A stretch of DNA of 64,000 nt. It comes from Brachyspira sp. G79. Its GTDB lineage: Bacteria > Spirochaetota > Brachyspiria > Brachyspirales > Brachyspiraceae. The notes under the pieces are model-generated. The model did no database searches and was not told the origin of the DNA. It saw only the letters and a list, made by a program, of their open reading frames with translations. The position numbers and the translations under genes were made by a program. The stretch covers positions 2,031,816 to 2,095,815 of the forward strand of contig NZ_JQIU01000008.1 of assembly GCF_002379365.1 (NCBI RefSeq), given 5' to 3'. This document shows positions 4,543 to 60,675 of this stretch, piece after piece. Every line of letters begins with the position of its first letter. Within the stretch, counting starts at the first letter, position 1.

Positions 4543-4716
4543 TATATACTGGAACACTTTTATTTTGTCAATTGATGCACTTTATACATAATTATCAACT
4601 TTTTTGCCGCACATGCCACAGACGGACAGGCGTCATAAAAGAACTGTGGTGTGCCCCCCAATATCAAAAATTACAAAATTAATTTTTTGACAAACTATAG
4701 GTTGTTTAGGTATATA
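4543..4716 (+). repeat. Intergenic repeat family B, copy 1 (outward promoter-like ends)
   Basis: The left end carries, on the minus strand, TTGACA, a 17-base spacer and TATATA, and points at the 3810-4298 lipoprotein. The right end on the plus strand is TTGACA (4687-4692), an 18-base spacer and TATATA (4711-4716). It abuts the stop codon of the 4717-5286 gene and points antisense into it. The interior has a GC-rich island (CCGCACATGCCACAGACGG...) that is out of keeping with the AT-rich surroundings. It accounts for most of the gap between the two lipoprotein genes not explained by the duplicated leader. Confidence 0.65.
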
Positions 4717-11109: not shown

Positions 11110-11315
11110 TATATAACTAAACAAATAAAGTTTGTCATAAAATTAGTTCTTTAAATTTGGATATTTGTAAAAGGCTTTGCCCAACTCTGCATGCTGACGA
11201 ACTACACATAGTGAAGCGTACTCGAATGATAAAAACTTTGGCAAAGCTGCATCAAAAAAATTGATAATTCTATATAAATTGCATCAGTTGACAAAATAAA
11301 ATTTGTATATATAAA
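11110..11315 (-). repeat. Intergenic repeat family B, copy 2 (reverse orientation)
   Basis: Fills most of the gap 10987-11377. Read on the minus strand it begins TTGTCAACTGATGCA, passes through a GC-rich interior with GGCAAAGCC, and ends ATGACA, 17 bases, TATATA (11110-11138). The opposite end on the plus strand is TTGACA (11288-11293), 16 bases, TATAAA (11310-11315), pointing at the arylsulfotransferase stop codon. It aligns block for block with the copy at 60311-60675. Confidence 0.6.
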
Positions 11316-27095: not shown

Positions 27096-27293
27096 ATGCT
27101 TGTTTCAAAACTACTTTACAAACGATTTTATGAGTTTGTATTTTATGTTAAACGCAGAGCAAGGTGTACCATATGCCATACTTAATAGTACTTCCTTCGG
27201 ACGCAGGCTGACAGACATTATAAAGGATGGCAAATCGTACAAATTTTAATTTAAAAAATTCATTTTAACAAATTACAGTTGTTTAGCTATATA
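27096..27293 (+). repeat. Mosaic repeat: family C left terminus and family B right end
   Basis: In the 832-base divergent gap 26968-27799. The left terminus GCTTGTTTCAAAACTACTTT is family C. The interior has a GC-rich island (ACTTCCTTCGGACGCAGGC). The right end is TTAACA (27265-27270), 17 bases, TATATA (27288-27293), as in family B. The next element, family A, starts directly after it. Confidence 0.5.
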
Positions 27294-29669: not shown

Positions 29670-29698
29670 TTGACAAACTGTATTTGTTTAGGTATATA
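29670..29698 (+). repeat. Family B right end, isolated, promoter-like
   Basis: TTGACA (29670-29675), 17 bases, TATATA (29693-29698). It ends 6 bases short of the CapD-like gene stop codon (29705) and points antisense into that gene. No left end is visible, since a terminator occupies the space. Confidence 0.55.
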
Positions 29699-32221: not shown

Positions 32222-32521
32222 TATTTTTTAATAATTATTTTGTAAAAGAACTTATATCCTCGACAAGCTTGGATACGCTTCACGAAAGTGCAAGTGTTGA
32301 AATTATTATTAAATCGTACTAATTATATTTTATATGTAGGATAAATTACTAAATTTAGTATAAAATCTAGCCTTTCGCTGCCGAAGGCGTACTTCGTATG
32401 TGGCAATACCACAGGCACTTCCTACAGTCACAAAAGAAGTGTGGGCTGTGGGGCAAAGCCACGCAAATATTTTAAATTTAAAAAATTAATTTTTGACAAA
32501 TTATATTTGTTTAGGTATATA
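32222..32521 (+). repeat. Intergenic repeat family B, copy 3
   Basis: Shares with the copies near 39900 and 41430 a block of about 130 bases containing TATATCCTCGACAAGCT, GGATACGCTTC, GCAAGTGTTGAAATTATTAT and AAATCGTACTAATTAT. A GC-rich island with CACAAAAGAAGTGTGGGC follows. The right end is TTGACA (32493-32498), 17 bases, TATATA (32516-32521). The left end holds a weaker outward TTTACA motif facing the DUF4405 gene. It occupies most of the gap 32116-32643. Confidence 0.65.
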
Positions 32522-38348: not shown

Positions 38349-38377
38349 TCTATACTGAAAATTTTTAATTTTGTCAA
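38349..38377 (-). promoter_or_regulatory. Promoter of ddl in a family B left end
   Basis: On the minus strand: TTGACA, spacer AAATTAAAAATTTTCAG (17 bases), TATAGA. The spacer is nearly identical to those ahead of both ankyrin genes and hisH. Confidence 0.65.
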
Positions 38378-38528
38378 TTTTTATGTTGTTCTTTTTCTCG
38401 CAGTACTTCCTTCGGTCGCAAAAGAACTGGGGTGTTACGAAGTACGCAGAGCGGCACGTCTGTGTGCCATCACAAATAATAAAATTTAAAAAACTAGAAT
38501 TGACAAAATATATTTGTTTAGGTATATA
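38349..38528 (+). repeat. Intergenic repeat family B, copy 4 (most compact)
   Basis: 180 bases with promoter-like motifs at both ends pointing outward: the ddl promoter on the left, and TTGACA (38500-38505), 17 bases, TATATA (38523-38528) on the right, next to the stop of the ankyrin gene. The interior is a GC-rich island with CTTCCTTCGGTCGC, CGAAGTACGCAGAGCGG and similar pieces. Confidence 0.7.
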
Positions 38529-38538
38529 TTAAAAAGTA

Positions 38539-39780
38539 TTAATTATATTCTTCAAGAAGCTTAACTATATCATTATTATATTTCTTATTATCTTTTGATT
38601 TTGCCATATCAAGTGCAGTCCTACCATCTTCATCAGTTATAGAAGTATCAGCATTATTTTCTAAAAGTATTTTTACTGCTTCAAATTGATTAGAATGTGC
38701 TGCATACATTGAATTTGCTGCATACATTAAAGCAGTCATTCCATAATCATTGGTATAATTAATATCAGCACCATTTTCTAATAACACATTTATTATATTA
38801 GTGTTTCCGTTATTAGCAGCATGCATTAAAGCAGTATCACCATCTTCATCAGTTATAGAAATATCAGCATTATTTTCTAAAAGTATTTTTGCTGCTTCAA
38901 ATTGATTAAACCTTGCTGCATACATTAAAGCAGTCATTCCATAATAATTGGTATAATTAATATCAACACCATTTTCTAATAACGTATTTATTATATTAGT
39001 GTTTCCTTTATAAGCAGCATAAATTAAAGGAGTCATTTCATCAGTGGTATAATTAATATCAGCACCATTTTCCAATAACATATTTATTATATTAGTGTTT
39101 CCGTTATAAACAGCATTCATTAAAGGAGTAGGCGATATATCATCAATATGTTCATTTTCTATTTCGCATACTGTATTGGCGTCAGCTCCATTTTCAAGTA
39201 AAAATTTTACCATCTCTTCATCATTTAAAGAAACCGCATAAACTAAAGCATTAATTCCGTCAACATTCCTTGCTTCAATGTCAGCACCTTTTTCAATTAA
39301 AAGCTCTGCTATAGCAATATTATGAAAGCTAGCCATAAGAGGAGTAAAGCCTGTAAGTTCTTCTTTTAAATTAATATCCGCATTATTTTCTAATAAATAA
39401 TTTATGATATCAGTTTGCTTATATTTTATAGCTTGTATTAAAGGGGTTGACTTAGAATATTTATCCCCTAAGTTATAATTAACATCTAAACTTTTTGATT
39501 CGATTAATTTTTTGATTGTTTCTAAATCTCCTGATTCTATAAAAGATATAATTTCTTTATCTGTGTATGAATAATATGCTGATTCTTCTGTTTCATTTGT
39601 ATTTATTGATGAATTATTTTCTTCATTATCTGTAGTTTTTAATTCTTTTGTTTTATTTATATTATTATCTGTACTATCATCTAAATTTATAGTTGCTTTA
39701 TCTGTGTTATTATTGTTTGATTCTTTGGTATTGCAAGAAAATATAATTATAGAAAGTAAAAAAATTAATAAATATTTCAT
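38539..39780 (-). CDS. Ankyrin-repeat lipoprotein 1
   Basis: 413 residues. A lipoprotein signal (LLSIIIFSC) is followed by an Asn/Thr/Asp/Glu-rich linker (about 17-75) and about ten ankyrin repeats. Well-formed units are TPLMNAVYNGNTNIINMLLE and TALMHAANNGNTNIINVLLE. The ninth repeat carries a short internal duplication (YAANSMYAAHSNQ). The first about 100 residues are almost identical to ankyrin lipoprotein 2, showing recent duplication. The ankyrin stack probably binds protein at the cell envelope; partner unknown. The promoter at 39818-39846 belongs to a family B end. Confidence 0.88.
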   Translation of the reverse strand: MKYLLIFLLSIIIFSCNTKESNNNNTDKATINLDDSTDNNINKTKELKTTDNEENNSSINTNETEESAYYSYTDKEIISFIESGDLETIKKLIESKSLDVNYNLGDKYSKSTPLIQAIKYKQTDIINYLLENNADINLKEELTGFTPLMASFHNIAIAELLIEKGADIEARNVDGINALVYAVSLNDEEMVKFLLENGADANTVCEIENEHIDDISPTPLMNAVYNGNTNIINMLLENGADINYTTDEMTPLIYAAYKGNTNIINTLLENGVDINYTNYYGMTALMYAARFNQFEAAKILLENNADISITDEDGDTALMHAANNGNTNIINVLLENGADINYTNDYGMTALMYAANSMYAAHSNQFEAVKILLENNADTSITDEDGRTALDMAKSKDNKKYNNDIVKLLEEYN

Positions 39781-39817
39781 AAAGAATATATCCTAATAGC
39801 ATATTTTTTATGAATAT

Positions 39818-39846
39818 ATAATACTGAAAATTTTTAAGTTTGTCAA
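39818..39846 (-). promoter_or_regulatory. Promoter of ankyrin lipoprotein 1
   Basis: On the minus strand: TTGACA, AACTTAAAAATTTTCAG (17 bases), TATTAT. The 5' part of a family B element. Confidence 0.65.
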
Positions 39847-40272
39847 TTTTTTGTTGTTCTTTTTCCTGCCTTCGCTCTGCGGGCTTAAGCAAAATAACCT
39901 TATATCCTCGACAAGCTCGGATACGCTTCGCTAAATTGCAAGTGTTGAAATTATTATTAAATCGTACTAATTATGTTTTATATTATAGAATAGATTATTA
40001 ATTTGGTCTGAAATATAGCCTGCTGTGCCTGCTTCTCTTCGCAGGAGTGGCACGCATAGCGAGGCGGATAGCGTTACAAAAGAACTGGCACACAGTATGG
40101 TGGTAAAGCCCCGCAAATATTTTAAATTTAAAAAATTGTATGCCTTAATACAAACTAATCTAGTATGTAAAACAATATACTTGTTTCAAAAGTCTTTCAA
40201 CGCCGCTGAGTACAGCAAAAAAGTACGGGTGATGCACAATTAATAAATAAAATTAGTTTTGAAACAAGTCTA
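39818..40272 (+). repeat. Mosaic of family B (left) and family C (right)
   Basis: Fills the gap 39781-40310. From the left: family B promoter end, the TATATCCTCGACAAGCT block, a GC-rich island with TTCTCTTCGCAGGAGTGG, and AAATTTAAAAAATT. There the family B right end is missing. A complete short family C copy follows, with termini at about 40173 (ACTTGTTTCAAAAG) and 40270 (GTTTTGAAACAAGTC), about 97 bases long. Confidence 0.55.
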
Positions 40273-40310
40273 ATATTTAATGTTTTATTTATAAAATATT
40301 AATTATATTT

Positions 40311-41315
40311 TTAATATTGTTCTAGAAGCTCAACTATATCCTTATAATCTTCTTCTTTTGCTAGATCAAGTGCAGTCTCCCCATATCCATTAGTTATAGA
40401 AGTATCTGCATTATTTTCTAAAAGTATTTTTGCAGCTTCAAATTGATTAAAACTAGCAGCCATCATCAAAGCAGTCATTCCATAATCAGTGGTATAATTA
40501 ATATCAGCACCATTTTCTAATAACATATTTATTATATTAGTATTCCCTCTATAAGCTGCATTCATTAAAGGAGTAGACGATATGTCAGTATGTTCATTTT
40601 CTATTTCGCATACTGTATTGGCGTCAGCTCCTTTCTCAAGTAAAAATTTTACCATCTCTTCATTATTATAAGTTGAGGCATAAACTAAAGCATTAATGCC
40701 GTCATTATCTTTTGCTTCAATGTCAGCACCTTTTTCAATTAAAAGCTCTGCTATAGTAATATTATGAAGACTAGCCATAAGAGGAGTAAATCCTGAAAGT
40801 TCTGCAGCTAAATTTACATCTGCTCCTAAATCTATAAGTTTATAAACAAGTTCTTCATCATACATAGCTTCTGTTAATGGACTAGAATACCCTAAAGTTA
40901 AATTAACATCTGCATTATTTTCTAATAAATAATTTATAATATTAGTTTGTTTATATTTTATAGCCTCTATTAAAGGTGTTGACTTGGAATATTCATCTAT
41001 TTCTAAATTATAATCAACATCTAAACTTTTTGATTCAATTAATTTTTTGATTGTTTCTAAATCTCCTGATTCTATAAAAGATATAATTTCTTTATCTGTG
41101 TATGAATAATATGCTGATTCTTCTGTTTCATTTGTATTTATTGATGAATTATTTTCTTCATTATCTGTAGTTTTTAATTCTCTTGTTTTATTTATATTAT
41201 TATCTGTACTATCATCTAAATTTATAGTTGCTTTATCTGTGTTATTATTGTTTGATTCTTTGGTATTGCAAGAAAATATAATTATAGAAAGTAAAAAAAT
41301 TAATAAATATTTCAT
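40311..41315 (-). CDS. Ankyrin-repeat lipoprotein 2
   Basis: 334 residues. The same lipoprotein signal and acidic linker as copy 1 are followed by about eight ankyrin repeats. It has one repeat absent from copy 1 (SSPLTEAMYDEELVYKLI) and lacks two or three central repeats that copy 1 has. The genes therefore differ by gain and loss of whole repeats, as expected from recombination between near-identical units. Function unknown; probably exposed at the envelope. The promoter at 41353-41381 is the same as that of copy 1. Confidence 0.88.
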   Translation of the reverse strand: MKYLLIFLLSIIIFSCNTKESNNNNTDKATINLDDSTDNNINKTRELKTTDNEENNSSINTNETEESAYYSYTDKEIISFIESGDLETIKKLIESKSLDVDYNLEIDEYSKSTPLIEAIKYKQTNIINYLLENNADVNLTLGYSSPLTEAMYDEELVYKLIDLGADVNLAAELSGFTPLMASLHNITIAELLIEKGADIEAKDNDGINALVYASTYNNEEMVKFLLEKGADANTVCEIENEHTDISSTPLMNAAYRGNTNIINMLLENGADINYTTDYGMTALMMAASFNQFEAAKILLENNADTSITNGYGETALDLAKEEDYKDIVELLEQY

Positions 41316-41352
41316 AAAGAATATATCCTAATAGCATATTTTTTATTAATAT

Positions 41353-41381
41353 ATAATACTGAAAATTTTTAAGTTTGTCAA
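41353..41381 (-). promoter_or_regulatory. Promoter of ankyrin lipoprotein 2
   Basis: On the minus strand: TTGACA, AACTTAAAAATTTTCAG (17 bases), TATTAT; identical to the promoter of ankyrin gene 1. Confidence 0.65.
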
Positions 41382-41640
41382 TTTTTTGTTGTTCTTTTTC
41401 CTGCATTCGCTCTGCGGGATTCGCCAAAATAACCTTATATCCTCGACAAGCTCGGATACGCTTCGCTAAATTGCAAGTGTTGAAATTATTATTAAATCGT
41501 ACTAATTATGTTTTATATTTAGAATAGATTATTAAATTTAGTATAAAATGCAGCTTTTTCGCTTCCTGCACAATACCTAACGCTACTTCTTTCGGTAGCA
41601 GGGACATATCTAGTAAAAAACACAATAGCTAGAATTTTAT
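41353..41640 (+). repeat. Intergenic repeat family B, copy 6, right end missing
   Basis: Near-identical over its first about 180 bases to 39818-40000, so it was copied together with the ankyrin gene. After the TAAATTTAGTATAAAATGCAG block and a GC-rich island (ACTTCTTTCGGTAGCAGGG) it runs into the Rpn-like remnant without a right end. Confidence 0.6.
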
Positions 41641-41933: not shown

Positions 41934-42557
41934 TTATATCAAATCTTTAAAACCTCTCAATATATTAAGACCAGTATTTCCGCTTTTCTCTGGGTGAAAC
42001 TGTATGCCGTAAACATTGTCATTTTTTACAACAGCGGGTATTCTCACATCATATTCGCTGTCAGCTATTATACTATCATCACAGTATTTGCCGTAATATG
42101 AATGCACAAAATATACATACTCCATATTATTAATATATTTAAATATTTTATCATCTTTTTTTATATTAAGATTATTCCAGCCCATATGAGGTACTTTCAA
42201 ATCTTTATTTTTCAAATCTTTATCTATAGGACAAATACTTCCATTAATAAGACTAAGACCATTATATTCGCCATATTCATAACTTTTATCAAAAAACATC
42301 TGCATACCTAAACATATGCCTAAAATTAATTTTCCTTTTTTAGCCTCTTCCATTATGGTATGCTTTAATATTCCGCCATTCTTTTTCTCAAGTTTATCTA
42401 TTGCATCTCTAAAAGCTCCTACTCCTGGAAGTATAATTGCATCCGCATTTTTTATTATATTTTCATCATCTGTAAGTTTATTATCTATATCTGTATAATT
42501 AAGAGATGACATAAGTGAAAATAAATTACCTACTCCATAATCTATTATAGCTACCAT
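41934..42557 (-). CDS. hisH: Imidazole glycerol phosphate synthase glutaminase subunit HisH
   Basis: 207 residues. A class I glutamine amidotransferase with GVGAFRDAI, the nucleophile elbow LGICLGMQM (Cys near residue 85), HSYYG and the C-terminal GIQFHPEKSG (catalytic His and Glu). It supplies ammonia to HisF in histidine synthesis. hisF is not in the window; hisC lies about 6 kb away. The promoter at 42595-42623 has the same sequence as that of the ankyrin genes. Confidence 0.92.
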   Translation of the reverse strand: MVAIIDYGVGNLFSLMSSLNYTDIDNKLTDDENIIKNADAIILPGVGAFRDAIDKLEKKNGGILKHTIMEEAKKGKLILGICLGMQMFFDKSYEYGEYNGLSLINGSICPIDKDLKNKDLKVPHMGWNNLNIKKDDKIFKYINNMEYVYFVHSYYGKYCDDSIIADSEYDVRIPAVVKNDNVYGIQFHPEKSGNTGLNILRGFKDLI

Positions 42558-42594: not shown

Positions 42595-42623
42595 ATTATA
42601 CTGAAAATTTTTAAGTTTGTCAA
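42595..42623 (-). promoter_or_regulatory. Promoter of hisH
   Basis: On the minus strand: TTGACA, AACTTAAAAATTTTCAG (17 bases), TATAAT. This is a full sigma70 consensus and matches the ankyrin gene promoters base for base in the spacer. The rest of the gap (42624-42880) has only weak resemblance to family B (near 42700-42735). Confidence 0.75.
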
Positions 42624-60310: not shown

Positions 60311-60675
60311 TGAATTTTAATATATATTATTTCTGTCAACTGATTCACTTTATATAGAATGATCAATTTTTTACTGTAGCTTTACCAAAGTTTTTATTCT
60401 TTGGATACGCTTAACAAAAAACTCAATTACTGCTACTTTATATGCTAACAATTTGTATTAAAAGTATTGTAATATTTAAAATTTAGCACAAAAATGCAGT
60501 TTTTAACCTGCATACAGCCACAGAGAGGTGTAGCTACCAAAGGCGTACATATGCGGCATACAACGCTACTTCATTAGTTTGTAAAAAAACTGTGGTTTAG
60601 CAAGACTGTGAAACTACACAAATATACAAATTAAAAAAGTAATTTTTTGAAAAACTGTATTTATTTGGCTATAAA
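60311..60675 (+). repeat. Intergenic repeat family B, copy 7 (longest, diverged)
   Basis: Fills the gap between fabH and the next gene. The left end has TTGTCAACTGATTCACTTTA, as in the copies at 4566 and 11288, with a weak outward -10. In the interior are TTTGGATACGCTT, AAAGGCGTACATATGCGGC and AAAAACTGTGG. The right end is TTGAAA (60647-60652), 17 bases, TATAAA (60670-60675), facing the membrane protein stop codon. Confidence 0.6.

Follow-up and report, generated by a model that had tools for sequence, protein, structure and literature searches.

The interval 38349-38528 of the window, by which we mean the whole 64,000-nucleotide stretch of Brachyspira DNA analysed, carries one member of a real, abundant and mobile repeat family, whose elements are MITEs by their size, inverted ends, copy number and signs of transposition with target duplication. 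With a probability of roughly 0.87, we read them as non-autonomous MITEs derived from an IS630-family IS, which insert at TA and are mostly neutral, with a minority acting as promoters.

Shared ends and copies in the window

The host genome comprises 3.29 Mb in 14 contigs and the window has a GC content of 27.6% (72% AT), with genes for D-alanine ligase, tandem ankyrin-repeat proteins and hisH in the vicinity of 38349-38528. Two end types were derived as a position matrix and a logo from 30 own-genome loci together with the window, of which the R-type reads outward TTGACAAAYTATATTTGTTTAGG-TATA and the L-type TTGACAAACTTAAAAATTTTYAG-TATA. They correspond to the imperfect terminal repeats of the family (TTGACAAA...TTTYAGTA or ...GTTTAGGTA) and, being inverted relative to each other, are terminal inverted repeats like those of MITEs. 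The matrix found 11 ends in the window at a score of at least 15, against 0.0 in first-order shuffles, and in 350 kb of own-genome sequence TTGACA and TATAWA at element ends were separated by 17 bases in 79 cases, by 16 in one and by 18 in none, so the common ends described in the first-pass annotation are real. The spacer is fixed at 17 bases in both end types, with different spacer sequences. Within the genome BLAST gave 67 matches to the copy (best besides the self-match, 3e-17), a model search at least 150 scored matches, and the 350 kb around matches at least 193 ends at a score of 17 or more, 7 of them within ORFs. Paired elements mostly measure 150-420 bp; the window copies are placed between long ORFs and have no coding capacity, as is typical of MITEs, and an Rfam search of the window gave no match. 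The ends and copies located in the window are listed below, means other than the matrix being named in brackets; strand is given for single ends.

4543-4716: MITE copy with both ends, L2 subtype (CTGGAAC...), R-end spacer of 18 bases
11110-11315: MITE copy in reversed orientation, both ends
27265-27293 (27291), plus strand: decayed R-end, extra copy
29670-29698 (29696), plus strand: R-end, extra copy
32222-32521: MITE copy, sole intact end R
38353-38524: MITE copy of 172 bp (also logo and TA boundary model)
38349-38377, minus strand: L-type end, outward TTGACA-N17-TATAGA, promoter-like
38500-38528, plus strand: R-type end, outward TTGACA-N17-TATATA, promoter-like
39818-40130: MITE copy, sole intact end L
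41353-41640: MITE copy, sole intact end L
42595-42623 (42597), minus strand: L-end TTGACA-N17-TATAAT, extra copy (also start-distance analysis)
60311-60675: degenerate MITE copy, R-end TTGAAA-17-TATAAA
63948-64000 (~63950), minus strand: R-end, extra copy, the element continuing beyond the window

All seven intervals named at first pass hold as copies, and the extra ends at 27291(+), 29696(+), 42597(-) and ~63950(-) had been missed. Contrary to the first-pass description, not every copy is complete: both ends are recognisable in three of the seven and a single end in another three, and the last copy is degenerate on either side. The copy 38353-38524, with TA on either side, is laid out as TACTGAAA... 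with the inner TTGTCAA of the L-end, a variable GC-richer core and TTGACAAA...GTTTAGGTA, and its R-end at 38500-38528(+) is directed at the 3' terminus of ankyrin gene 38539-39780(-), in which ankyrin domains were found. The reversed copy 11110-11315 has an R-type end on its left (ATGACA-17-TATATA) and an L2-type end on its right (TTGACA-16-TATAAA), while the degenerate copy 60311-60675 has no left -10 at 17 bases. The L-ends of 39818-40130 and 41353-41640 both read TTGACA-17-TATTAT and both are situated 39 bp upstream of the start of an ankyrin gene, 38539-39780(-) and 40311-41315(-), respectively. Throughout 38349-41640 the MITE copies alternate with tandem ankyrin-repeat genes, as a gene-plus-element unit that is seemingly duplicated. 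Element interiors, such as 39870-40100, contain GC-rich modules (e.g. CCTCGACAAGCTCGGATACGCTTCGC) that differ between copies and may represent a separate nested repeat family.

Distribution and mobility

Matching ends are present in 22 of 24 sampled members of the genus; of 16 further genomes in the phylum only 3 gave matches, all of them weak. Among the matches listed for the exact L-end pattern in a public genome set, all named ones are Brachyspira, and the same pattern had no match in viral contigs. The copy 38349-38528 is also found beside orthologous ankyrin genes in six relatives (G004, G009, G013, G014, G016 and G017) and is hence old; a 68-base interior block of it is present in some orthologues and missing from others. 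Other copies of the family are recent. A presence/absence comparison of orthologous gaps, as proposed at first pass, covered 38 paired elements of G004, G009, G013 and G017, of which 23 have a candidate empty site in a different species, some alignments being poor; for single ends it gave 53 clusters with an end-free orthologous flank, TATA being kept at the junction in 29 of the 53. The G017 gap orthologous to 32222-32521 is far shorter and lacks the repeat core. At the clearest site, the empty form in G009 reads TTGACAAATTGATTTATTTTTGTA-TA-ATCT and the filled form in G004 reads ...TTTTTGTA-TA-[TACTGAAA...TTTTCAGTA]-TA-ATCT.

Target duplication was scored as 0, 2, 4 or 6 bases for each filled/empty comparison, and duplication of TA was favoured in 7 of 12 decidable comparisons, exactly so at the site shared by G004 and L217, a locus of another Brachyspira. 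The remaining decidable comparisons favour 0 or 6 duplicated bases, possibly because TA repeats slipped or the flank changed. The left flank in G004 and the scoring of alternatives speak against a duplication of the four bases TATA and lead to TA. In 15 places of the own-genome stretches two ends abut with TATATA in common, as insertion of a new copy into the TATATA of a resident end would produce. At L241:559-2787 a chain of several elements is inserted in one another's ends, with back-to-back junctions that have TATATA in common. The same intergenic site in G004 (C1:~148753) and G013 (C2:~2977959) holds an element in opposite orientations, due either to independent insertions or to inversion in place. 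The earlier proposal that the elements are non-coding and mobile is supported by empty sites with TA duplication, by an IS630 relic with the same ends and by multicopy spread across the genus.

A probable IS630-family parent

The sole DDE_3 (IS630) match in 25 genomes sampled occurs in the own genome at C8:1638566 (E 4.8e-10), and two relics were delimited there.

L121:701-1756, equivalent to C8:1637823-1638878: degenerate IS630-family relic of 1,056 bp, bounded by an L-end and an R-end
C8:1626774-1627467: second IS630-family relic, 90% identical over 694 bp

The first relic retains a decayed HTH region and a DDE_3 remnant with many stops. The stop codon of the transposase, TGA, falls within TTGACA at the R-end, and on the simplest reading TTGACAAA would form the inner portion of the site recognised by the transposase. 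Numerous contigs of G014 and G011 (e.g. L362, L364, L366-L369) terminate in the IS, within its first or last 70-96 bp. Contigs breaking at an IS are the usual sign of a multicopy IS in short-read assembly, and the contig ends in these two genomes imply a multicopy, near-identical IS630 that is absent from the assemblies. In G021 a contig begins inside an open transposase N-terminus (MDFNLTDEEIKFLKAF...) adjoining a perfect L-end. No complete autonomous copy could be followed from end to end in the sampled genomes, as draft contigs stop inside the IS; the existence of an autonomous IS630 partner is very probable, since the relic has the same two ends and the drafts of relatives break there.

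In common with the IS630 family, the elements show TA duplication, and HTH and DDE_3 transposase remnants lie within the same terminal repeats; unlike it, the MITEs have no transposase, and intact parent copies are seen only as contig ends. Both marks of IS630 derivation were thus found, namely terminal repeats in common with an IS630-family relic and duplication of a TA target. A DDE_Tnp_1 (IS4/IS5) parent was rejected, as the own genome gave no match and just 3 relatives did, and a search of long terminal-repeat pairs in relatives for a transposase found none.

Promoter quality of the ends and alternative readings

Each element supplies TTGACA, a 17-base spacer and its last TA, and the duplicated TA plus two host bases finish the -10, which is why most ends read TATATA. 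The sigma70-like look of the ends hence follows from the terminal repeat combined with the TA target. The claim of outward sigma70-like promoters at both ends stands as a matter of sequence likeness and is unconvincing as a general statement of promoter quality, given the prevalence of TATATA and the orientation toward gene 3' ends.

A true mobile-promoter family, in which most copies would have a working sigma70 promoter at each end, selected to drive flanking genes, is an unlikely reading, although it draws on the strict 17-base spacing of both end types despite their differing spacers and on the more frequent retention of TTGACA near starts in a first sample, described below. In 1.52 Mb of relatives, outside elements, TTGACA-TATAAT peaks at a spacing of 16-17 bases with 34 and 14 matches (48, against about 3 for each other spacer), whereas neither TATAWA nor the TATATA that most element ends carry shows such an excess there. 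A smaller own-genome sample gave 17 TATAWA matches at 17 bases outside recognised ends, which may include decayed ends. T at -7 occurs in only about 15-20% of ends. The ends are not mainly turned toward gene starts, as mobile promoters would be, with 198 end clusters facing gene 3' ends and 136 facing starts; many ends are less than 30 bp from stop codons, and conservation is lower over TTGAC than over the adjoining AAA where an end does not face a start. Because of TATATA without a spacing peak, the rarity of T at -7 and the orientation toward 3' ends, most ends are unconvincing as promoters, while a minority look like real ones. The impression of complete promoters applies to a subset near start codons and not to most ends, which have no T at -7.

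For a test of promoter selection, ends were picked by spacer sequence alone, several cut-offs were tried, and 80 loci fetched with an exact TTGACA-bearing pattern were analysed apart because that pattern biases the test for TTGACA. In the first sample, ends 15-60 bp upstream of starts had TTGACA in 20 of 23 clusters compared with 119 of 187 elsewhere (p=0.018), and both TTGACA and T at -7 in 8 of 23 compared with 16 of 187 (p=0.0014). A second, differently sampled set gave 2 of 15 and 12 of 122 (p=0.47) and did not replicate the result, the pooled p being 0.004. The pattern therefore does no more than hint at co-option of a minority of ends as promoters, given the several cut-offs and a second sample that did not reproduce the result.

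Less probable again is a role as structural RNA, in which paired arms would let the copies stabilise 3' UTRs, be cut by RNase III or terminate transcription. Arms do pair in predicted folds (-42.4 kcal/mol for the window copy), the proximity of many ends to stop codons would suit such a role, and Correia elements are RNase III substrates (PMC2649163), but interiors vary widely among copies and inverted-repeat pairing is expected in any MITE. Chance promoter-hexamer matches without any repeat family, near matches being common at 72% AT, are refuted by the 11 ends against 0.0 expected in the window, the 67 own-genome BLAST matches (best after self 3e-17) and the empty sites in relatives.

Promoter sequences at hisH and at a second site

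Returning to the preferred reading of IS630-derived MITEs, two direct cases concern an element end located in a promoter. hisH (41934-42557(-)) has the L-end TTGACA-N17-TATAAT (42597) 39 bp upstream. In 15 relatives a native TTGACT-N17-TATAAT precedes hisH, and in the window the same conserved TATAAT is preceded instead by the TTGACA-N17 of the element, so that the -35 is exchanged. Homology upstream of hisH ends at the element, which also marks a synteny break with loss of the far flank; because of this loss, recombination at the common TTTYAGTATAAT is a possible alternative to insertion. In G004 and at L217, with both flanks intact, the element lies at the TA within a resident TTGACA-N17-TATAAT, where it supplies TTGACA anew with unchanged spacing; as their far ends differ, the two elements may be independent insertions.

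Promoter-preserving landing is thus seen at one site (G004, L217) and probably at hisH. From such sequences it is conceivable, though we hold the idea only tentatively, that the terminal repeat of the IS630 type is organised so that insertions preserve promoters, whereby landing in the TA of a -10 would swap the -35 and restore the promoter; if so, promoters would be tolerated landing sites and genes could be rewired without being silenced. Preferential targeting of -10 boxes was discarded, as most empty sites have no upstream -35: by a rough estimate -10 boxes make up about 1-3% of intergenic TATA sites, compared with 2 of 53 empty sites, and therefore no excess of such landings is apparent.

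Relation to known elements

The closest description concerns the Correia elements (CREE) of Neisseria, likewise short intergenic MITEs with terminal repeats and a TA target in about 120-250 copies, with an outward -35 in the repeat and a -10 completed by the insertion site (PMC2649163). Here the element itself contains the -35 and part of the -10, the remainder of which is provided at some sites ('Black promoter') (PMC2649163). The repeat is unrelated, however (TATAGYGGATTAAC... against TACTGAAAATTTTTAAGTTTGTCAA), the phylum is another and the Brachyspira core is longer and more variable; the logo of ends, set against the CREE consensus (PMC2649163), does not contain the Correia terminal repeat TATAGYGGATTAA.... 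According to a review (PMC10969869), MITEAba12, BrickBuilt, QMITE1 and SonMITE_1 are MITEs with sigma70-like promoters. They resemble the Brachyspira elements in being non-autonomous and in carrying such promoters, and differ in parents and hosts, the comparison following the review's description (PMC10969869). The family had been put forward as not known in this form. Judged by these comparisons its kind is already known, from Correia and other promoter-bearing MITEs, while the Brachyspira repeats and their IS630-type parent are distinct; no earlier description of the Brachyspira family was found in the open-access literature searched.

Proposed mode of spread and significance

The parent would be an IS630-family (Tc1/mariner superfamily) IS of Brachyspira, whose transposase presumably acts in trans on the common terminal repeats. 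Insertion would take place at TA in AT-rich intergenic DNA, preferably in TATATA, including the TATATA at resident ends. With TTGACA located 17 bases inside the terminal TA, insertion would yield TTGACA-17-TA/TA+NN, and the next two host bases would determine whether the -10 is usable. Most copies would be neutral passengers that promote transcription weakly if at all, and a minority would act as promoters, either where the host provides a good -10 some 20-60 bp in front of a gene or upon landing in a resident -10.

For Brachyspira this means an abundant mobile element with an identifiable parent, whose insertions can be ordered by comparison between species. An insertion can preserve the promoter of the adjacent gene or give rise to one, although most insertions probably do neither. 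Cases of the hisH type, with the -35 exchanged for a transposon end and the -10 kept, offer natural experiments in which promoter replacement can be compared between species.
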